Positions 5,887 to 22,890 of a stretch of 26,111 nt of DNA are shown here, one piece after another. The notes beneath the pieces are model-generated. The model was not told the origin of the DNA. It was given only the letters and a program-made list of their open reading frames with translations, and did no database searches. Source of the DNA: a virus; IMG/VR virus record IMGVR_UViG_3300002835_000952, positions 1 through 26,111 of that record; one strand, written 5' to 3'. A program made the translations under genes and the position numbers. The first letter of the stretch is position 1, and the number at the start of each line of letters is the position of its first letter.

Positions 5887-6245
5887 GCCGCGGCCACGTC
5901 GAGGTCAAGGGATTCGGCGACCAGGCCGACCAATGGATGCTCGAATGGAAATTCGGGCGCGTGTTGCCATCGAAGAATAGCCTCATCCTGCTCCGGTCCG
6001 GCTCCAATAGCCTGCCGAATCGTCGCCTCAATATCAGATGAGGAAAGACCCTGACGGATCAGCCACACTTTGACTTTCCAGCTAGGTGCAGGCTCGTAAA
6101 CGGTCGGGCGGACCCACCGAGGAATGCCCGCAGCAACGGCATCCTCTTCAAGCATCTGGGTTCCGTTTTCCGGCGGCGTCCAGTCGTCATTCGCCAAACT
6201 GACGTTAACGATTTGGCCGTCAGCAATGTGTGCGACTCGCTTCAT
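5862..6245 (-). CDS. Small protein paired with Gly-rich adhesin, tail-fibre-assembly-like
   Basis: A 127-residue protein (MKRVAHIADGQIVNVSLAND) whose ATG overlaps the TGA of the Gly-rich protein upstream (ATGA), so the two are translationally coupled. The opening Met-Lys-Arg-Val-Ala-x-Ile-x-Asp-Gly-x-Ile-Val-x-Val pattern and the helical segment SWKVKVWLIRQGLSSSDIEA resemble small proteins that follow fibre genes and help them fold or attach. It is acidic toward the C-terminus with several Trp/Pro pairs. No membrane segment is present. The assembly role is an inference from pairing and shape; a small virion protein is equally possible. Confidence 0.55.
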   Translation of the reverse strand: MKRVAHIADGQIVNVSLANDDWTPPENGTQMLEEDAVAAGIPRWVRPTVYEPAPSWKVKVWLIRQGLSSSDIEATIRQAIGAGPEQDEAILRWQHAPEFPFEHPLVGLVAESLDLDVAAAWPEILAI

Positions 6246-7138
6246 AGGTAGGTAATAATAAGGACGTAACCCGGCGCGCCATTCCCGCCAGCACCCGAAT
6301 CCGTCGCGTCGTTCTCTCCGGCGCCACCTCCGCCTCCGCCAGCTCCAAATCCGCCGCCGTTTCCTCCGGCTCCGGCAGCGCCGCCGCCAGTCCGTTTGGC
6401 CGCTCCTCCTCCGCCTCCGGTCCCGACGCCTTTGCCCGGGTTGCCGTTGCCTCCCGCGCCGCCAGACGCCCCGGCAGATCCGCCGGAAACTTGACCAATC
6501 ACCGAGTTCCCGAGTTGGCCTCCAGCGCCTCCATTGCTGGCGGAATTCCCTGAGGTTATACCTCCGCCAGCGCCGCCTCCTGTCGGGATCTGGAGGCCAG
6601 TCGCAACTGCCGCCGAGCCTGTTCCGCCGGTTGCAGAGGCCGCGCCGCCGCTGTTACCGGATGCAGTTATTAAACTAATGCTGTGACCGCTAGACGTTCC
6701 GGCTCCTGCGCTCCCGGTCGTGGTTGTCCCGCCTCCGCCTCCGTTGCCGCCAGATGCCAAGAAGTTGCTAAATGAGCTGTCTCCGCCAGGGTTTCCGGCG
6801 GCTCCGTCAGTTAAGTTTGCCGTCCGGCCCGCGCCACCAGTCCCACCCGCGCCGACGACAACCGAAACCGTAGACCCTAGGTCAGTCGTCAGGAGCCAGC
6901 CCTCGACGACGCATCCGCCAGCTCCGGCTCCTCCGCCACATCGCACCGCGCCAGCCGCACCTTTTCGGCCAGATCCGCCACCTCCTCCGCCCGCAACAAG
7001 CCGAACGAAAACGCGTTTTGCGACACTGGGCGAAGGATTCGTCCAGGTATCGTCAGCAGTGTATAGTTTGACATCAGTTCCGGTAGGAGCTTTTAGGGCA
7101 AAGCCGGTCCCGGTCCAGACGTGGTTCAGATCTGGCAT
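6242..7138 (-). CDS. Glycine-rich adhesin / fibre-like protein
   Basis: A 298-residue protein. The short N-terminus (MPDLNHVWTGTGFALKAPTG) is followed by a domain reading TADDTWTNPS then KRVFVRLVAGGGGGG, the hallmark of the glycine-rich domain seen in phage fibres, in which a Trp-Thr-x-Pro opening leads to V-x-V-x-x-V-A-G-G-G. Beyond residue about 50 the protein is dominated by Gly, Ala, Ser and Thr, with poly-Gly patches that in related receptor proteins form polyglycine-II-like receptor-binding tips. It ends GNGAPGYVLIITYL, a short beta closing strand typical of the domain. Its ATG shares one base with the upstream stop (TAATG). It probably sits on the virion surface and contacts the host. 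Confidence 0.75.
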   Translation of the reverse strand: MPDLNHVWTGTGFALKAPTGTDVKLYTADDTWTNPSPSVAKRVFVRLVAGGGGGGSGRKGAAGAVRCGGGAGAGGCVVEGWLLTTDLGSTVSVVVGAGGTGGAGRTANLTDGAAGNPGGDSSFSNFLASGGNGGGGGTTTTGSAGAGTSSGHSISLITASGNSGGAASATGGTGSAAVATGLQIPTGGGAGGGITSGNSASNGGAGGQLGNSVIGQVSGGSAGASGGAGGNGNPGKGVGTGGGGGAAKRTGGGAAGAGGNGGGFGAGGGGGGAGENDATDSGAGGNGAPGYVLIITYL

Positions 7139-15010: not shown

Positions 15011-16789
15011 CTATTCTTCTCCTACTTCTCGATCTCCGCCAAGCAATTTCAGCATTAGGGCCGCTGTCACCTGCATTGCTTCGCAGTCAAAATAGTGGTT
15101 TGCCCGTTTTCCGATCCGCTCCCAAATGTATTTGTCCGCTTTTTTAACTCGGCGCTCAGATTCCAGCTGCTGAAGGTAGTCCGGCGATGCGTCTCCAGCA
15201 ACTTCCCAGGTTGGCCCTCCGGATCCAGACCTTAAACGGGCCAAGACGTCCTTGACGTTCAGGTTCGACCAATAGAATACCGAACAGGCGAGCGTCGGAG
15301 TTAACGCGACTTTTCGTTTCTGGGAGTAAAAACGCCAGACCTTGCGCCCATTTGGAAGGCGGTGCTGGTAGGTGGTTCGGGCGTCGCCCATGAGAGCGGT
15401 CCATCGTCTGGCGGCGCATCCTCGATAGACGTCGTAGGTGGCGTAACCTGCGTCGACGAAAACAAGCGAAGGATGAACCTCCAATCGTTGGGCTAGGTTG
15501 GAAACATCGTCGAAACTGATCAGTTTTTCGTGCCACAACAGCCTCGAAGATCCGTCGGCGGCCCAGCTTCGAGCAACAACGAAAACGTGATCCATTTGGC
15601 AGTCCACGGTGATGATTCGCAATTTCGCGCTTGCCATCGATGCCTCATAGGGTGCAGGCAAGACGTGGCCGGACTTGTCGAGCGCAGCCTCCGTTTCCCA
15701 GTTTTCTCCCAGCTTGTAATCGGAAGGCGTCAGGTCTACCGAGTAATCCTCATAGGCTTCTGCCCACGGTTGGCCCAATCGTTTTTGGTAGAAAATTTTG
15801 AGAGGCTCGATGTCGCCAAGTTTGGCGCTTTGTTTGGCTCGGAGGTAAAGCTCAGCCAACCTACCCCAGCTCATCGCGCAAAGGGCGTTCCAATGGAAGC
15901 CTACGTTTTCGGGCGAGGCGCTTGGATTCTGTCGAACGTAACAACCAGCTTGGTTGAGCCGTTTTCTGGTCCGGTCATCATCCGGGAATTCGGCTTGGCA
16001 GGCGGAACACAACATGACCGTCGAAGCCCTGACCGCTGCGTAATCCCAGCCTTGTTCGGTCCTCGCATCTGCTGACCACTTGATTTGATCCCACTGGTAT
16101 GGCTGGCGGGCCTGGCATTCCGGGCAAGCGAAAGTCCATTCGCGCTGATCGGTCATCTGGTGCCGTTTGGTCATGTCGTCATCGGCGTGACCGCCTTGAG
16201 ACATGAACAAGCATTTGCCCAGCCATCCGAACGCGGTCACCCGCGCTTCCGCCTCGGCCATATGGCCCGTTGGCCATCTCCAACACTCGTCGCCAATGAG
16301 CCACCTAATTGACCTTCGCTGAAGGTTTGTTTTGTTGTGAGCACCCAACACCCACAAGGTCATGCCGTTTGTGAACTGCTTGATGGCCGTTTTGTTAAGG
16401 TGTCTGTTAGGCGGAAAAAGCGACGTTACTGCCTGGCATTCGCCAAAAAGCAAACCCATTCGGCTTTCCGCCTGGTCGCGGGCGTCCTCGTCGGTCTGAT
16501 CCAGCCAGAGCGTAGGACCGGGCAGGTTCGCGATGATGTAGCAAAGCCCGACCTCGGCGACTGTTGTTTTGCTGGATTGGACCGAGGCCAGCAAGGTGAT
16601 GACTCGAACGGTCGGATCGACGAGAGCTTCGAGCGGTTCCTTCAGCCAAGGCGAGTTGTCAGAGCGGAAGCGACCCGGAATCGGCGAATACGGGATGCCG
16701 CGAATGTTGTCCTCGGCCCATGCCCACGGAGGTCGGCGGTCCGGCGGACGCCAGGCTTCACGCCAGATCTGTTGGAGCCTCGGATTCAT
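15011..16789 (-). CDS. Terminase large subunit (GpA family)
   Basis: A 592-residue packaging motor. The N-terminus (PPWAWAEDNIRGIPYSPIPG) is typical of lambda gpA relatives. The ATPase part has a Walker-A-like SVQSSKTTVAEVG (69-81) and a Walker B IRWLIGDE (161-168). Two CxxC pairs (222/225 and 261/264: FACPECQ and MLCSACQ) form the zinc-type insertion of the family. The nuclease part shows RIITVDCQMDHVFVVARSW (Asp396) and SLVFVDAGYATYDVY (Asp446). It cuts and pumps DNA into the head and would pair with the upstream small subunit, whose last 32 bases overlap this start. The length agrees with GpA-type terminases. Confidence 0.95.
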   Translation of the reverse strand: MNPRLQQIWREAWRPPDRRPPWAWAEDNIRGIPYSPIPGRFRSDNSPWLKEPLEALVDPTVRVITLLASVQSSKTTVAEVGLCYIIANLPGPTLWLDQTDEDARDQAESRMGLLFGECQAVTSLFPPNRHLNKTAIKQFTNGMTLWVLGAHNKTNLQRRSIRWLIGDECWRWPTGHMAEAEARVTAFGWLGKCLFMSQGGHADDDMTKRHQMTDQREWTFACPECQARQPYQWDQIKWSADARTEQGWDYAAVRASTVMLCSACQAEFPDDDRTRKRLNQAGCYVRQNPSASPENVGFHWNALCAMSWGRLAELYLRAKQSAKLGDIEPLKIFYQKRLGQPWAEAYEDYSVDLTPSDYKLGENWETEAALDKSGHVLPAPYEASMASAKLRIITVDCQMDHVFVVARSWAADGSSRLLWHEKLISFDDVSNLAQRLEVHPSLVFVDAGYATYDVYRGCAARRWTALMGDARTTYQHRLPNGRKVWRFYSQKRKVALTPTLACSVFYWSNLNVKDVLARLRSGSGGPTWEVAGDASPDYLQQLESERRVKKADKYIWERIGKRANHYFDCEAMQVTAALMLKLLGGDREVGEE

Positions 16790-17610: not shown

Positions 17611-18723
17611 TTACACCGTGCCGAGGTTGAAAATTCTGCCCGCTTTTCGCAACTCGTCGAAAATGTCGGCCTCAACATCGCCGTCATGCTCTCTTGGTCT
17701 GCTGAACGTGCCTGTGAGCCAGTAGTGATGTTGCCTTGAGCGATCCTTCGCAAAGTGATCGAATCCAGCTAAGACTAGTCGATCCACGCCAACTATATTG
17801 AGGAGGAAGGTAGCCATTAACAGACCGGAAGACGGCAGGAAGACGCCAACATCTCGACGATAGCCAGACCTTACAAGCGCCCGCTCCTGAATCATTCGGC
17901 GGATTTCGTTGTAGTGTCTTGCAGGCACTTTGTAGACCTCGCTTGCGCTTGGATCAGCGTTGGTCTGTTCGTGCGGGAGCAGGATTCTAGGGTGCTGGGC
18001 TTTTTTGGAAATCGGAGCAAAACATGACCAGAGCGTCGTTTTGCTGCCTGTATGTAGTTCGAATCCGGCGGTCACAAAATCGTTGAACCTGACAACTTCC
18101 TCGAACTCATCAATCTGCTCGCCCAGTTCCTCGGCAAGAATGGAAGGCCCGTTGCCCACCAGAACGACCTTGGCATCTTTCGCAATTCGTAACGGCCTGA
18201 TCCAGCGGCCATGAATGAATCGACCTTCGATTTTGATTTCGACCGCTCCGGCCCGCATGAGCCTGTCGATCCACCAGCCTTCCGGTCTGACCGTTGGGTG
18301 CAGGGTTTGACCTTGCCAGCGATTTTTGCTGTCGACGTAGGAAATCGAAACGCAGAACCTTTCCGCGATCCGCGACCACTCGGAAAGGGTCTTATCTACG
18401 TCCTCCGGCGGAAGATGCTCAAGAACGTCGAACGCGGTCACCACGTCGAAACTTTTGTCAGGAGCCGGGATTTCATGCGCCCAGCAAATCAGATCTGCCG
18501 AGGTGCACGCGAAGTCGGCTCCTATTACGCTTGCCTCCGGAAGCGACTGCCGGAGTCGCTGGGCGAATTCGTTGTGCCCGCATCCAACATCGATGACCCT
18601 TTTCGGCTGCCATCGAGCGACGATAGGAACCGCCCTCGCACCGTGGCATGTGTGGCCGTATTGCGAAAAATCGACCGAGCCATAGATACCTTGGTATTTT
18701 TCCAGTTCGGTCATGCTCAGCAT
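17611..18723 (-). CDS. Methyltransferase-GT29 sialyltransferase-like fusion
   Basis: A 370-residue two-domain enzyme. Residues about 1-175 are a class I SAM methyltransferase: motif I RVIDVGCGHNEFA (42-54), Asp70 region VIGADFA, and motif FDVVTAFDVLEHLPPE (92-107). Residues about 183-370 match GT29 sialyltransferases: L motif KVVLVGNGPSI and DEFEEVVRFNDF, S motif FLPSSGLLMATFLLNIVG with LVLAGFDHF, motif III HYW (333-335), and H-x4-E (His346, Glu351) as in motif VS. The family moves sialic acid or a related sugar from CMP-sugar to an acceptor. Its start overlaps the stop of the Pro-Ser repeat gene (ATGCTGA; an alternative ATG is at 18714), so the two are coupled. GT29 genes occur in some marine phages; this fusion is not one I know. 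Confidence 0.85.
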   Translation of the reverse strand: MLSMTELEKYQGIYGSVDFSQYGHTCHGARAVPIVARWQPKRVIDVGCGHNEFAQRLRQSLPEASVIGADFACTSADLICWAHEIPAPDKSFDVVTAFDVLEHLPPEDVDKTLSEWSRIAERFCVSISYVDSKNRWQGQTLHPTVRPEGWWIDRLMRAGAVEIKIEGRFIHGRWIRPLRIAKDAKVVLVGNGPSILAEELGEQIDEFEEVVRFNDFVTAGFELHTGSKTTLWSCFAPISKKAQHPRILLPHEQTNADPSASEVYKVPARHYNEIRRMIQERALVRSGYRRDVGVFLPSSGLLMATFLLNIVGVDRLVLAGFDHFAKDRSRQHHYWLTGTFSRPREHDGDVEADIFDELRKAGRIFNLGTV

Positions 18724-19817
18724 CCAGTCGTGGCTCCCAGTTGCCCGCTTGTTGCCTGCCAGAAATTTGTTCCATCCGAGTAGTAACCATCAGGTGCCGC
18801 GGTTGTTCCGCCGGAGTCCGTGTAGACCATCGTCAATTCGGCCAGAATTGAGGAGTTAGCGTAATACGTTGTGGCCGATCCAGGCATGGCGCATGCGCCA
18901 GATCCGCTAGTTGCCGAGTAATACAACGAGTGGCTGTAGAGCGTAGGCGGTGGCGAAGAGCTAGGCGGTGCCGAGGACGACGGAGGCGGAGTCGAGGATG
19001 GAGGTGGACTTGAACTGGGCGGCGGAGTCGAAGACGGCGGCGGAGTCGAACTCGGAGGAGCCGAGGAAGACGGCGGCGGAGTCGAAGAGGGCGGAGGCGA
19101 AGACGACGGCGGAGGCGAGCTTGAAGGAGGCGCTGACGAGCTAGGAGGCGGCGATGAACTCGGAGGCGCCGAGGACGACGGAGGCAAAGTCGAGCTTGGA
19201 GGCGGAGTCGAGCTTGGCGCAACTCCGCATTCAACGTGCGGCACAAATGGGAAGAGCGTCAGAACCCGTCCCTCGCTTGAGAATGCCTCAAAATAGAGCG
19301 GAGCTACACTCGTCGATCCGTTAATGAAGGTCTGCCCAACAGGACCGTCGAATGTCCGAGTGAAAAACGAGCCTTCCTCCGCAAAATTAACAACCTGCGA
19401 CCCGCTGGTCCGAACGATCGTTTCGGACCAGATGCTTTCCTCTGTGATGTCCCCGCCAACGAATCTGTGCCAGTAAAGGTTCAGGGTATATGATGCGCCC
19501 TCGATTCCTCCATCGAGCGTAACGAACGGCGGGAGTTCGGATCCCTCGTTTCGATAAAACGTTGCGCTATACGGGTAGGTGATCGGCAGTTCATCGACGC
19601 AGGCCCGAGCCATTGTTATGACCGCAGAGAGCGGAGCAGGCGGAGGCGGAGGAGTCGGCGGAGGCACCAAGGGCTCGTAAGGACGTCCGCGATCCCGCCT
19701 CGGCGACCAAACAACTGAAGGCCAGCTTGCCTTTGGCAGTGCAGGCGCGGGCGGAAACGAAGGCCGCGAAAACTTAATTGCGACCCGGCGACCTGAAATC
19801 TTTGGCGGCTTGATCAT
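18717..19817 (-). CDS. Pro-Ser repeat surface/fibre protein, likely glycosylation acceptor
   Basis: A 366-residue protein. The basic N-terminus (MIKPPKISGRRVAIKFSRPS) leads to a poly-Pro linker near 50-62, then a beta-rich domain (about 65-198) that includes SYTLNLYWHRFVGG. Residues about 200-291 are some 15 copies of a six-residue unit of the type P-P-S-S-[ST]-[PAL]. The C-terminal domain (292-366) includes TLYSHSLYYSATSGSG and the strand segments PDGYYSDGTNFWQATSG, with Cys309 and Cys366, a type of module that I associate with Bacteroidota phage and surface proteins. The Ser-rich tract is an obvious O-glycosylation substrate, and the next gene, overlapping its stop, is a glycosyltransferase. 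Its own ATG overlaps the previous stop (ATGA). Confidence 0.8.
   Translation of the reverse strand: MIKPPKISGRRVAIKFSRPSFPPAPALPKASWPSVVWSPRRDRGRPYEPLVPPPTPPPPPAPLSAVITMARACVDELPITYPYSATFYRNEGSELPPFVTLDGGIEGASYTLNLYWHRFVGGDITEESIWSETIVRTSGSQVVNFAEEGSFFTRTFDGPVGQTFINGSTSVAPLYFEAFSSEGRVLTLFPFVPHVECGVAPSSTPPPSSTLPPSSSAPPSSSPPPSSSAPPSSSPPPSSSPPPSSTPPPSSSAPPSSTPPPSSTPPPSSSPPPSSTPPPSSSAPPSSSPPPTLYSHSLYYSATSGSGACAMPGSATTYYANSSILAELTMVYTDSGGTTAAPDGYYSDGTNFWQATSGQLGATTGC
18945..19220 (-). repeat. Tandem 18-bp coding repeats (Pro-Ser hexapeptides)
   Basis: About 15 in-frame units of 18 bases with a GGCGGCGGAGTCGAAGAC-like pattern on the plus strand encode the hexapeptide tract of the surface protein. 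Units differ at a few positions, mostly switching Ser/Thr and Pro/Ala. Such repeats can change copy number by slippage, altering linker length. Confidence 0.92.
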
Positions 19818-20161
19818 TTCTTGATCGAATCAATCGTTGGAAGGTTGCATCCGAGGCCAAGAGGATCAGCGGAATCAGGCAAGCCGTCATATGGGCGAAC
19901 GGTCATCAACTCTTTCATGTCAGGCTCCTTTCCTAGAAGCTCGCAATCGACTGGAAGCGTCGTCCAGTCCCAGCTTAGTAGGTCATCAGCGTCGTAATCG
20001 GTTGACTGAACTGGCCTGTTATCTTCGCCCGTTTCGACTTGGACGACAACGCCACCACGCCATATCCACCACCGATCCGTCCAGCCGAGCCGGCGCACGG
20101 CATGACCTGCCCTCATGACCCGGAGAGCGTAAGGAAAATGGAGCTTCGGAGGAATCGTCAT
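19814..20161 (-). CDS. DUF2829/Tad2-like protein, possible anti-Thoeris factor
   Basis: A 115-residue protein whose first ~65 residues resemble DUF2829: a helix (PYALRVMRAGHAVRRLGW) ending in the R-x-x-W typical of the family, a beta stretch (WWIWRGGVVVQVETGEDNR), and the closing YDADDLLSWDWTTLP, like the family's D-x-x-A-x-D-W. Tad2 members of this family block Thoeris immunity by binding its cyclic nucleotide signal. The C-terminal ~50 residues (from CELLGKEPDMKELMTVRPY) are an added tail that I do not recognise. It lies in a minus-strand accessory run next to surface-protein genes rather than in an early region, which is odd for an anti-defence gene; a structural role cannot be excluded. 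Confidence 0.55.
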   Translation of the reverse strand: MTIPPKLHFPYALRVMRAGHAVRRLGWTDRWWIWRGGVVVQVETGEDNRPVQSTDYDADDLLSWDWTTLPVDCELLGKEPDMKELMTVRPYDGLPDSADPLGLGCNLPTIDSIKK

Positions 20162-20928
20162 GCCAGATCGCGGTGAAGAACGAGCCAGAAATTGAGCGAT
20201 GAGCGGCTCGCTGTCCGGGTCAGCTCTTCTCCGAGGTCAACAGTATACTCGGCCCTGATTTCTGCCAACATACTAACAGTTGTTCCGTCGTCATCCTCGT
20301 AGTCGTAAAGGGCGGTATCAAGCGCAGCAGCGGTTAGATCAACCCAAATGACGTAGCGAGCGGTTTCGCCGGATCCGACCTGGAGGATGGTGTCGTCGTT
20401 GGCTGCCTGCAAAGCAACGGGAGGCTCCGGCTCGTTGATTTTTCCGGCAATCTGAAGTTCGGTGATGGGAAGCTCAACGATTTGTTCGCGCCTGACAAAT
20501 TGGACCGAAAGTGGGAATTGGTCATTGGCTTTGGCATGGACAACAGCCAGGCCATCGTCGGAAACTTGATCTAGTCCGCGAAACGCAACGGCACCGGAGT
20601 CCAAATCAAAAACGCAATGGATGGCTCCGTCGATTTCGACTTCCGGGTATTCGACGCCGAACGTCAGCCGGACCGCATCCGAAACTCCATCCTCGTTTTC
20701 GGCGGTCAATTGCGCCACCCAGATCGAGCCTTGGGCTTCGGTCGAAACGACGCCGGAGATGAGGCCGGTATCTTCGTCGATGGAAACTCCGGTGGGCAAA
20801 CTTCCGCTGGCGATCGCCCACGAATCTGCGGATGTCGAAGCAGCAGTCAGGGCGGGCTGAAAAGCGTAGTATCGTCCGCGTTGCCAGGCGAGAACGGAGG
20901 TTGTCGGGTCGATAATAGGAGCGGGCAT
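20158..20928 (-). CDS. Ig-like (He_PIG-type) surface protein
   Basis: A 256-residue protein. Residues about 10-95 match the putative Ig-like fold of phage and surface proteins: SWAIASGSLPTGVSIDEDTG, then LISGVVSTEAQGSIW and VAQLTAENEDGVSDAVRLTF, i.e. an L-P-x-G-[VL]-S-[IL]-D turn, T-G-x-I-S-G, then G-x-x-x-x-x-V-x-x-x-N. The rest is beta-rich with acidic loops (LYDYEDDDGTTVSMLAEIRA) and ends WLVLHRDLA. There is no signal peptide. Such domains often bind carbohydrates on the virion surface. Its stop overlaps the DUF2829-like start (ATGA), suggesting an operon of four coupled genes through to the glycosyltransferase. Confidence 0.65.
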   Translation of the reverse strand: MPAPIIDPTTSVLAWQRGRYYAFQPALTAASTSADSWAIASGSLPTGVSIDEDTGLISGVVSTEAQGSIWVAQLTAENEDGVSDAVRLTFGVEYPEVEIDGAIHCVFDLDSGAVAFRGLDQVSDDGLAVVHAKANDQFPLSVQFVRREQIVELPITELQIAGKINEPEPPVALQAANDDTILQVGSGETARYVIWVDLTAAALDTALYDYEDDDGTTVSMLAEIRAEYTVDLGEELTRTASRSSLNFWLVLHRDLA

Positions 20929-20931
20929 ATG

Positions 20932-21630
20932 CTAGTCGGCCAAAAGTGTCAACTGAGGGATCGGGTCGGCGGAACCTTTGGTGGCTAGCCACCAACTGGC
21001 GTCGTGGTCCCGATAGTAGTCGCTCAAAACAACCGGGATCTTCGCATCCCTCAAAACACGGGCTTGGGTGATGCCGCCGCCGTAAACGTAGTAAAGGATC
21101 TGGTCAGTCCCTGCATGTTCGGATGCCCGATAGAACAGCGAAACGGTCGCCTCGGGATCCTCGGCGCTTCCTCGGGTTGCGTAAGCTCGCCAACCTCTCG
21201 GGATGCCCATCCAATTGTGCGCTTGGTATTTTGCGCCAACATACAAGTCCGCGATGATATCGATTCCTTGATCCTGCCACCATCGAGCAACCCACCTTTT
21301 TCGGTAGAGGTTGTTCCAGCCGACCGGGAAAGGCATGGAGTCGAGAGCCGAGAAATTAGGCTCGACGCAGACTTTTGCTCCGGTCGCGACAACGTCTTGC
21401 GGGTGCGTCCAAAGTCGCGAAAAACGGTAGTCGTCAGTGTAAAAATGCCACGAATTGACATTGCGTTGATCCCGCCGCCTGACCGTGCCCCAGCAGGCCA
21501 TCGGAGCAACGATAGCCGAGGCCTGGCGATCAAGTCGAAGCGTCGGAAGTTCGAGCGGGTTGTCGGTCGGGAAGACGAGGTCGAGTGGCGCTGTCGGTTG
21601 ACTCGGTTGACTCGGCGGATCGGTAGTCAT
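20932..21630 (-). CDS. DUF4417 protein, first paralog
   Basis: A 232-residue protein of the DUF4417 type, common in phages and with no settled function. Key parts: WHFYTDDYRFSRLWTHP, CVEPNFSALDSMPFPVGWNN, RWVARWWQDQGIDIIADLYV and GIPRGWRAYATRGS, then LYYVYGGGITQARVL. The preferred start MTTDPPSQPSQ at 21630 is level with its paralog; a GTG at 21756 would add a Gly-rich leader lying antisense to a convincing plus-strand gene and is disfavoured. The ATG shares the CATG tetramer with the start of that divergent gene. It is 3 bases from the Ig-like protein downstream. Confidence 0.75.
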   Translation of the reverse strand: MTTDPPSQPSQPTAPLDLVFPTDNPLELPTLRLDRQASAIVAPMACWGTVRRRDQRNVNSWHFYTDDYRFSRLWTHPQDVVATGAKVCVEPNFSALDSMPFPVGWNNLYRKRWVARWWQDQGIDIIADLYVGAKYQAHNWMGIPRGWRAYATRGSAEDPEATVSLFYRASEHAGTDQILYYVYGGGITQARVLRDAKIPVVLSDYYRDHDASWWLATKGSADPIPQLTLLAD

Positions 21631-22027
21631 GAAGCGGAACGAAACTTCGGGCGTAGGTTTGCCCGGGCGGGAGGTTGTCAACCCGCCCGCGCCGGATGTT
21701 GTTCTGCCGCCGGGCCCTCCGGGAGGGCCTCCGCCCGCGCCTCCCGGCCCGCCCACGCCTCCTCGCCCAAATCCGCAGGACCTTGCGAACGCAAGACTGC
21801 TTTACGACGATTGGCAGTCTGCGCGAAGGGCATCGATCCGAGCCGAGGCGGAAATGATCTTGGCTCAGCGGGCCATCGATGGAACAAAAAAGCCGACGAT
21901 GGAAATGTTCCAAGAATCGATGCGAGCGATTCGCATGTTTTCAGCGCGGGAAAACGTCGCGCAGGAAAAACGCGAACGACTCCTCAACTACCTCGTTGAT
22001 CGAAATCTGAAGTTCGGGGACTTATAA
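21629..22027 (+). CDS. Lone plus-strand gene between the DUF4417 paralogs, unknown
   Basis: A 132-residue protein on the strand opposite to its neighbours. Residues 1-48 are Pro/Gly-rich (PPGPPGGPPPAPPGPPTPP) and the remaining ~85 form a helical domain rich in Ala, Arg, Glu and Met (LLYDDWQSARRASIRAEAEM, MEMFQESMRAIRMFSAREN, ending LLNYLVDRNLKFGDL). The composition is protein-like, and frames on the opposite strand here are Arg/Cys-rich nonsense. The start is head-to-head with DUF4417 paralog 1 (2-base overlap) and the stop is tail-to-tail with paralog 2, both stops read from one TTATAA. The Pro-rich DNA includes two GC-rich hairpins (21664-21689 and 21713-21729) that may affect transcription. 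Function unknown. Confidence 0.65.
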   Translation: MKRNETSGVGLPGREVVNPPAPDVVLPPGPPGGPPPAPPGPPTPPRPNPQDLANARLLYDDWQSARRASIRAEAEMILAQRAIDGTKKPTMEMFQESMRAIRMFSARENVAQEKRERLLNYLVDRNLKFGDL

Positions 22028-22642
22028 CGGGCGGCTTCGTCCTGTCGCCGGAATCCATTCGGCGGACCGACGACGGCACCAGTCGCGGACTCGATCGCCG
22101 CCGCCATAGACGGCAAAGACCAGTTCCGAGGGATCATCGACTTCGGCGTGCGCCATTGCCAGCATGTGCTCGCTTTCGAGATCAACGATCCGAGTTTCGG
22201 CGGCTCGGGTCGCATACGCCTTCCATCCGGCTGGAACGCCAATGAGGTTCGTCACCTGGAATTTCGCCGGAACATGCAGATCGACGAGAATCCGGCGGCC
22301 TTGACTTTGCCAGTAACGGCTGATCCACCGTTTCCAGCCGATCTCATGGAGTCCGAGCCAATGTGGCGTCGAATCGCCAAGGCTGAAATTCGGCTCAACG
22401 AGCGTGGGCGCGGGTGTTTTCATGGGAAGGTCCGGCTCGCGCTTGAGAGCCGAAAAATACTTGTCCGCGACGTAGAAGTGCCACGTCCCTCGGAACTCTT
22501 TCTGGCGGGAAATTCGCCAGTGTTTGCTTTCTCCACCCCACGGGAGGAATGGCTGGTCGATGGCGTCAGCCTGAAGAGCAAGGCGGAGGGTTGGAACCTC
22601 CGCCAGGTTGTCGGTCGGCCAGATTGCGTTTGGGACGCTCAT
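22022..22642 (-). CDS. DUF4417 protein, second paralog
   Basis: A 206-residue protein homologous to the first DUF4417 gene: both share PTDN-L-x-[EL]-x-PTLRL near the start, then WHFY, VEPNFS, a K-R-W-[IV]-[AS]-R-[WY]-W-Q-x-Q-G series, G-[IV]-P-[RA]-G-W-[RK]-AYATR, and VYGGG. The start at 22642 overlaps the preceding stop (ATGA); an in-frame ATG at 22657 is an alternative. Its C-terminus (DWCRRRSAEWIPATGR) differs from that of the paralog. The two are separated by an opposite-strand gene, suggesting an insertion between duplicates or a gene cassette. The molecular function of DUF4417 is not known to me. Confidence 0.75.
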   Translation of the reverse strand: MSVPNAIWPTDNLAEVPTLRLALQADAIDQPFLPWGGESKHWRISRQKEFRGTWHFYVADKYFSALKREPDLPMKTPAPTLVEPNFSLGDSTPHWLGLHEIGWKRWISRYWQSQGRRILVDLHVPAKFQVTNLIGVPAGWKAYATRAAETRIVDLESEHMLAMAHAEVDDPSELVFAVYGGGDRVRDWCRRRSAEWIPATGRSRPL

Positions 22643-22890
22643 GGGACTGGAAACCATTTGCGGTCTTCCCGGCGAACCAATCCCTCGGTCTCCAGCTCTC
22701 GGAGGATTTCTCCGAGTCTGAGTGCGGCCTCGACTTGGCCGATTTTTCTCCAGGGCCGAATAGCCCGGAACCAACCATAAGCCAAATCTCCGGTCGTGTG
22801 CCCGGGTTTGCGCCCGACGAGGGCGATAGCCTCCCTTCGCAGGATGTCCCGGACCAGCTTCTGCTGGGCGCTTTGGAGGATCCGTTTCAT
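22639..22890 (-). CDS. Small winged-helix-like protein
   Basis: An 83-residue basic protein (MKRILQSAQQKLVRDILRRE). The C-terminal half (VEAALRLGEILRELETEGLV then RREDRKWFPVP) has the helix-helix-wing look of small winged-helix DNA-binding proteins, where a recognition helix ends in E-G-L-V-x-R followed by a short hairpin. It is coupled at both ends: its ATG follows the stop of the acidic protein upstream in ATGA fashion and its stop overlaps the DUF4417 start. A local regulator is the natural guess, without direct support. Confidence 0.5.
   Translation of the reverse strand: MKRILQSAQQKLVRDILRREAIALVGRKPGHTTGDLAYGWFRAIRPWRKIGQVEAALRLGEILRELETEGLVRREDRKWFPVP

Follow-up and report, generated by a model that had tools for sequence, protein, structure and literature searches.

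The window analysed here is a 26,111-nucleotide stretch of DNA from a freshwater phage (positions 1 to 26,111 of IMG/VR record IMGVR_UViG_3300002835_000952). A preliminary description made from its letters had pointed to a single gene in which a class I SAM methyltransferase (MT) is joined to a domain resembling the GT29 sialyltransferases. Two questions arise from this locus: whether the fusion is genuine, and what a phage might modify with such an enzyme.

The fusion gene and its two domains

The open reading frame occupies positions 17611-18723 of the minus strand and its product is 370 amino acids long; stops are present on the plus strand over the same coordinates (17611-18723). Because the first ATG, at 18723, is missing in relatives, the conserved start is M4 (window position 18714), which gives a protein of 367 amino acids and places the gene at 17611..18714 (-). 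Genes for a terminase, a portal, a head protease and a tape measure lie around it, in keeping with its description as a phage gene.

The N-terminal half (residues 4-178; 18190..18714, minus strand) is, as claimed, a class I SAM methyltransferase domain. The Pfam families Methyltransf_23, Methyltransf_25 and Methyltransf_11 score above their curated cutoffs on the fusion protein, and the domain carries motif I (VIDVGCG), FDVVTAFDVLEHL and LHPTVRPE.WWI. Residues 1-177 of the structural model match class I methyltransferases of Rossmann-type fold, with Z scores that reach 17.8 across about 160-170 residues; ties among these matches are numerous and include the sugar methyltransferases TylM1 and CalS10.

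The C-terminal half (residues 183-370; 17614..18177, minus strand) is assigned to GT29 by sequence and by modelled structure. Glyco_transf_29 (PF00777) scores 53.4 bits in Pfam (E 3e-14; curated cutoff 23). Porcine ST3Gal1 (2wnb) is matched over residues 180-360 with E 5e-10 by the single protein, and over residues 176-368 with E 7e-17 by a profile of the fusion family. The four GT29 hallmarks that had been named are all found as described: VLVGNGPS...VVRFND, PSSGLLMATFLL, HYW and H346-x4-E351. On the minus strand, sialylmotif L covers residues 186-231 (18031..18168), including N191 and N214; sialylmotif S, aligned to ST3Gal1, covers residues 297-322 (17758..17835), where PSSGLLMATFLLNIVGVDRLVLAGFD follows the pattern P-S/T-S/T-G...GF; sialylmotif III (HYWL) covers residues 333-336 (17716..17727); and sialylmotif VS (HDGDVE) covers residues 346-351 (17671..17688). 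The key residues of human ST3Gal1 are N147, N170, H299 (catalytic acid), Y300, H316 (catalytic base) and E321 (PMC6884586). Their equivalents in the fusion, N191, N214, H333, Y334, H346 and E351, do not vary among window-type fusions and hardly vary across the aligned viral GT29 domains.

Structure prediction had been proposed as a check on this half. An AlphaFold2 model built from a 50-row alignment reached a pLDDT of 91.2 and a pTM of 0.89 (five rows of close relatives gave a pLDDT of 36), and its C-terminal half adopts the GT29 variant of the GT-A fold, so that the refuting outcome named for this check, a fold outside GT29, did not arise. At 2.7 A in both cases, residues 153-369 of the model superpose on human ST6GalNAc2 with Z 16.2 (184 residues) and on porcine ST3Gal1 with Z 15.9 (178 residues, 25% identity). 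On every feature that can be tested in sequence and model, the protein belongs both to GT29 and to the class I methyltransferases, and its catalytic activities are predicted from this membership.

The chance that the gene is an artefact, either a frame error joining two unrelated genes or a fortuitous likeness of motifs, is practically nil, and nothing was found in favour of it. The sequence matches to ST3Gal1, together with the fold, exclude a chance resemblance to GT29. An assembly frameshift, which the preliminary description had raised, is ruled out by relatives in which both halves stand in one frame: six further IMG/VR contigs (100, 100, 93, 84, 84 and 84% identity) and five more distant lineages (44-52% identity). 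Moreover, comparison of the window with its relatives gives a dN/dS of about 0.05-0.11 for each half, indicating that both domains are kept under purifying selection, and the two-domain model is confident. The fusion of a class I methyltransferase to a GT29 enzyme is genuine, and both folds are supported.

Distribution of the fusion and of viral GT29

A degenerate DNA pattern for the L motif was used to gather viral and bacterial GT29 loci, and placed GT29 in, at the least, more than 100 IMG/VR contigs. By our own count, 11 phage lineages among the matches listed carry an MT-GT29 fusion. The distant fusions with the same methyltransferase type as the window are those of L038, L043, L257, L047/L118 and L094/L128; in other phages (L127, L100, L357, L376 and L382) GT29 is fused to a second type, a Methyltransf_24 domain, and in L382 the domain order is GT29-MT-MT. 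Elsewhere (L395, L396, L407, L412, L427 and L428) MT and GT29 are encoded by adjoining, unfused genes. The original reading of the gene thus holds in its identity and phage setting and was incomplete in treating the fusion as a single case, since it left out the other fusion lineages, other GT29 fusions and these unfused pairs.

Several further arrangements were seen. A GT8-like domain is fused ahead of GT29 in IMG/VR contigs, recognized by Pfam in L018 and by sequence in L029, L040, L044, L046, L055 and similar contigs. The GT29 protein at L023:5642-6670 (and in L116) has an N-terminal region resembling 2OG-Fe(II) oxygenases, a weak match below the curated cutoff. A group of AT-rich contigs labelled viral (L106, L126, L067, L082 and L107) has GT29 that groups with the fusion clade and almost no other ORFs nearby; these may be algal DNA. 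In Bathycoccus, 69 sialyltransferase-like genes are reported (PMC5811610).

Bacterial GT29 is found in many genomes, often within long multi-domain proteins. Like the GT29 enzymes of Idiomarina, Alteromonas and Loktanella (PMC5811610), the phage enzyme keeps the motifs in a prokaryotic setting. Unlike the phage fusion, the bacterial GT29 proteins examined carry other N-terminal regions, with the exception of a distantly related MT-GT29 fusion in one Rhizobiaceae MAG (L144). A sample of about 1,165 genomes of Verrucomicrobiota, Alphaproteobacteria and Planctomycetota yielded no instance of the fusion; two of these searches gave no control match. It is not described in the literature searched for phage with GT29 or sialyltransferase, and a word search of two papers on GT29 evolution (PMC5811610, PMC10225777) returned no mention of phage. 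In the literature consulted, GT29 figures as a family of eukaryotes with a handful of bacterial representatives; here it is widespread in viral contigs. The kinds of enzyme are known, their combination is new, and the larger story set out below is plausible.

Serine- and threonine-rich repeats beside the fusion

The fusion belongs to the late structural module: on one side are the terminase genes, on the other a module that includes an Ig-like protein. The terminase large subunit (15011..16789, minus strand; PHROG 15, E 6e-76) is downstream, and the Ig-like (He_PIG) protein (20158..20928, minus strand; Pfam He_PIG, with a weak PHROG tail match), probably a tail or fibre module, is upstream. 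Directly upstream is a gene for a 366-residue protein (18717..19817, minus strand), whose end is overlapped by the fusion ORF and directly abutted by the fusion when read from M4. It contains a 92-residue PPPSSS/T repeat (18945..19220, minus strand) with 39 Ser, 6 Thr and 41 Pro, and it is the only one of the 152 ORFs of the window with Ser/Thr low complexity. The repeat varies in length between close relatives. Both ends of the 40.4-kb contig of one relative lie inside the Pro-Ser/Thr repeat, and the contig is therefore probably a complete circular genome that assembly opened at this repeat.

Other genes in the window and its relatives deserve mention in their own right. Two related genes at 20932-21756 and 22022-22774 (minus strand) match PHROG 940 ("nuclease"), the first also containing DUF4417, and are probably a duplication. 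A Gly-rich protein (Pfam Gly_rich_2) at 6242-7138 (minus strand) is perhaps another fibre or adhesin. In relatives of the window phage, queuine-tRNA-ribosyltransferase-like (DpdA-like) and QueD-like genes (L007:544-1932 and 1748-2242; also L008) suggest 7-deazaguanine modification of DNA.

A Ser/Thr low-complexity repeat within 1.6 kb upstream, counted per lineage at position -1 or -2 from the fusion, accompanies 8 of the 11 fusion lineages among the matches listed; among the same matches the 90 other viral GT29 genes yield 2 such cases, and 1,655 other ORFs likewise 2. Fisher's test of the fusions against other GT29 genes gives p ~3e-8, a value uncorrected for the ancestry that the lineages share. 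Besides the window family, the repeats are TPSPSP in L038, TPTPTP in L043, PPSSSA in L257 and PPSSSV in L127. Additional glycosyltransferases stand in some cassettes: in L094/L128 a GT8 gene separates a TPDVSP repeat from the fusion, and in L357 a GT25 gene lies between a nearly Pro-free SDSASS repeat and the fusion, the repeat coming first in both. In L100 a PTPTPT repeat overlaps the start of the fusion, and it had been expected before the upstream DNA was examined. The two matches among non-fusion GT29 genes, L056 and L099, have a poly-Thr protein followed by a GT2 gene and GT29, and L099 further has a pair of MT genes and, upstream, a Peptidase_S74 gene for a tail fibre.

The association was noticed post hoc, and several lineages share one type of structural locus as well as ancestry. 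The repeat was defined at first by Pro plus Ser/Thr and the definition was widened once, after L357, to Ser/Thr low complexity; under the first definition five GT29 ORFs, all of them fusions, had such a neighbour, as compared to none of 80 non-fusion viral GT29 genes. Three of the five fusions examined after the idea had formed (L257, L100, L357, L376 and L382) fit it. MT-only relatives (L262, L264 and 52 Methyltransf_24 loci with an upstream ORF) have no such repeat neighbour, indicating that the association tracks GT29 and not the methyltransferase alone. A search for relatives of the upstream structural protein of L043 returned only the protein itself.

There are exceptions. In L047/L118 and L049 the repeat consists of His-Pro and is free of Ser/Thr, in L376 it is collagen-like and built of Gly-Asp-Pro, and L382 has no repeat neighbour. 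A shifted frame, which would turn the repeat of L047/L049 into Pro-Thr, was considered and rejected, as the variation falls at third positions of the His-Pro frame. A stand-alone GT29 gene follows this repeat (L047:948-1520, plus strand; L049:386-967, minus strand), and in it Met replaces the His of the VS motif, the only two cases of a non-His residue at this position among 45 aligned domains; the fusion in L047 retains the His. If the repeat serves as acceptor, an enzyme whose neighbour is free of Ser/Thr would be expected to lose its hydroxyl-activating base, as here. The two genes are 87% identical and represent one evolutionary event, which proves nothing.

The neighbourhood would be functionally meaningless if the MT-GT29 gene were a mobile extra gene inserted at repetitive DNA acting as a recombination hot spot. 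Cassette contents do vary as in a variable slot, in the type of MT and in the presence of GT8, GT25 or GT2, and repeat length differs among close relatives. We nevertheless consider this origin quite improbable: start/stop overlaps are conserved across lineages, in the loci read only glycan enzymes fill the slot, and the fusion is under purifying selection.

A possible glycan on the phage particle

The reading that we prefer, for which the balance stands about even, is that a Ser/Thr-rich protein of the phage's own particle is O-glycosylated from a CMP-ulosonate made by the host, and that the resulting glycan is methylated. Late in infection, the host would supply a CMP-activated 2-keto acid sugar, be it sialic acid, Kdo or a different ulosonate, and the GT29 half would transfer this sugar by an inverting mechanism, with H346 as the base and H333 as the acid. 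The most likely acceptor would be the Ser/Thr residues in the product of the upstream gene that overlaps the fusion, the Pro-Ser/Thr repeat protein, or else an initial sugar attached to those residues. The same glycan would be capped or altered through methylation by the MT half, leaving part of the particle coated with a mucin-like glycan. Activity, donor, acceptor, methylation site, location on the particle and benefit are all inferred.

No CMP-sugar synthase (PF02348) was detected in nine contigs by searches whose positive controls matched, suggesting that the donor would be supplied by the host. The preliminary description had proposed a methylated or sialic-acid-like sugar on a phage or host target. 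Of the two targets, the Ser/Thr repeat neighbour and the setting among late structural genes favour a phage particle protein. Nothing points to sialic acid in particular, given that these contigs lack a CMP-sugar synthase, and host CMP-Kdo or another CMP-ulosonate is as likely a donor; CMP-Kdo would be the simplest guess in a Gram-negative host. The plant GT29 enzyme RCKT1 has been proposed to use CMP-Kdo (PMC11288761). Some phages appear to bring their own donor pathway: jumbo phage LR756508.1 (484 kb; L013, L014) has four GT29 genes, NeuB-like and NeuA-like genes (CMP-nonulosonate synthesis) and sugar-nucleotide enzymes in one region. Its GT29 genes are unfused, as is the MT/MT/GT/GT29-like cluster of Stenotrophomonas phage DLP_6 (L012), and in both phages no Ser/Thr repeat protein was recognised beside them.

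Known systems offer partial parallels. The phage enzyme shares all four sialylmotifs, the catalytic His pair and the fold with CAZy GT29 enzymes such as vertebrate ST3Gal1 and ST6GalNAc2 and plant RCKT1. It differs from the sialyltransferases of that family in its fusion to a methyltransferase, in a compact catalytic domain of about 190 amino acids and in that no membrane anchor was seen. ST3Gal1 and ST6GalNAc2 act on mucin-type O-glycans, a system with which the locus has in common a Ser/Thr/Pro-rich repeat encoded nearby, proposed here as acceptor. Mucin-type O-glycosylation in animals is started by an initiating polypeptide glycosyltransferase, GT27. No such initiating enzyme was recognised among the scanned genes of the window, and we therefore do not class the locus as a mucin-type O-glycosylation system; other lineages have GT8, GT25 or GT2 in the cassette. 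Maf flagellin glycosyltransferases transfer Neu5Ac or Kdo directly to protein Ser/Thr (PMC11339370), likewise using a CMP-ulosonate, as proposed for the phage fusion. Maf enzymes, probably a different family since none appears among the Pfam results for the fusion, act on flagellin and not on Pro-Ser/Thr repeats. Particle glycosylation by phage enzymes is known from mycobacteriophages, whose glycosyltransferases and methyltransferases are believed to act on the virion (Freeman et al. 2023, cited in PMC12894461); these are actinobacterial phages, unlike the window phage, and the portion of PMC12894461 consulted mentions neither GT29 nor Ser/Thr-repeat acceptors.

Several observations count against modification of the phage's own repeat protein, namely the His-Pro, Gly-Asp-Pro and repeat-free lineages, the many other phage GT29 genes with no Ser/Thr repeat close by, the lack of a recognisable initiating glycosyltransferase or CMP-sugar pathway in the window, and the fact that vertebrate GT29 enzymes usually extend a sugar and not bare Ser/Thr. 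It is unlikely, in our estimate, that the glycan has another carrier, either a free or lipid-linked phage glycan or a different virion protein, with the Pro-rich rod as a mere spacer on the same fibre. Such a carrier would suit the Pro-rich repeat, including His-Pro, that is common to all neighbours in the window clade, and the activity of vertebrate GT29 enzymes on sugars, by which an initiating enzyme would be needed. It fits poorly with the dominance of Ser/Thr in the repeats of 8 of the 11 lineages, among them that of L357 with almost no Pro, and with the poly-Thr proteins of L056/L099.

There is a minor but real chance that the enzyme instead alters host surface glycans (LPS or capsule), blocking superinfection or freeing progeny from receptors, and that the repeat neighbour is coincidental. 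Phage glycosyltransferase genes classically serve seroconversion, GT29 is present in many bacterial genomes and often part of a long multi-domain protein, and most other phage GT29 genes are without a nearby Ser/Thr repeat. What speaks against the host surface is that the fusion sits in the late structural module and overlaps a structural-type gene, that pairing with Ser/Thr repeat proteins recurs, and that no lysogeny gene was seen in the scanned part of the 40.4-kb relative.

Extended beyond the window, own-particle modification would make these cassettes a mucin-like O-glycosylation module of tailed phages. Its parts would be a particle protein with a Ser/Thr repeat, a GT29 enzyme using a CMP-ulosonate and a fused or adjoining MT that caps the glycan, joined in some lineages by an initiating GT8, GT25 or GT2, and together they would give methylated acidic glycans on particles. 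We put this generalization forward tentatively, as somewhat short of an even chance. If it is true, phages have evolved a counterpart of mucin sialylation that bears on phage stability, adsorption and immune recognition, and they would be a source of soluble, compact GT29 enzymes for glycoengineering.

As to the host, Planctomycetota genomes contain MT-only relatives (E ~1e-45) next to tape-measure-like genes, and a terminase large subunit with a 39% match is found on a 3.7-kb contig of a Planctomycetota MAG; these are a hint, not proof, of a planctomycete host for the window phage. At the Planctomycetota loci L339-L344, where GT29 was not found, tape-measure-like genes are followed by a solo MT relative and this in turn by a gene with a Ser/Gly-rich repeat, and these loci are perhaps prophages or domesticated tails.
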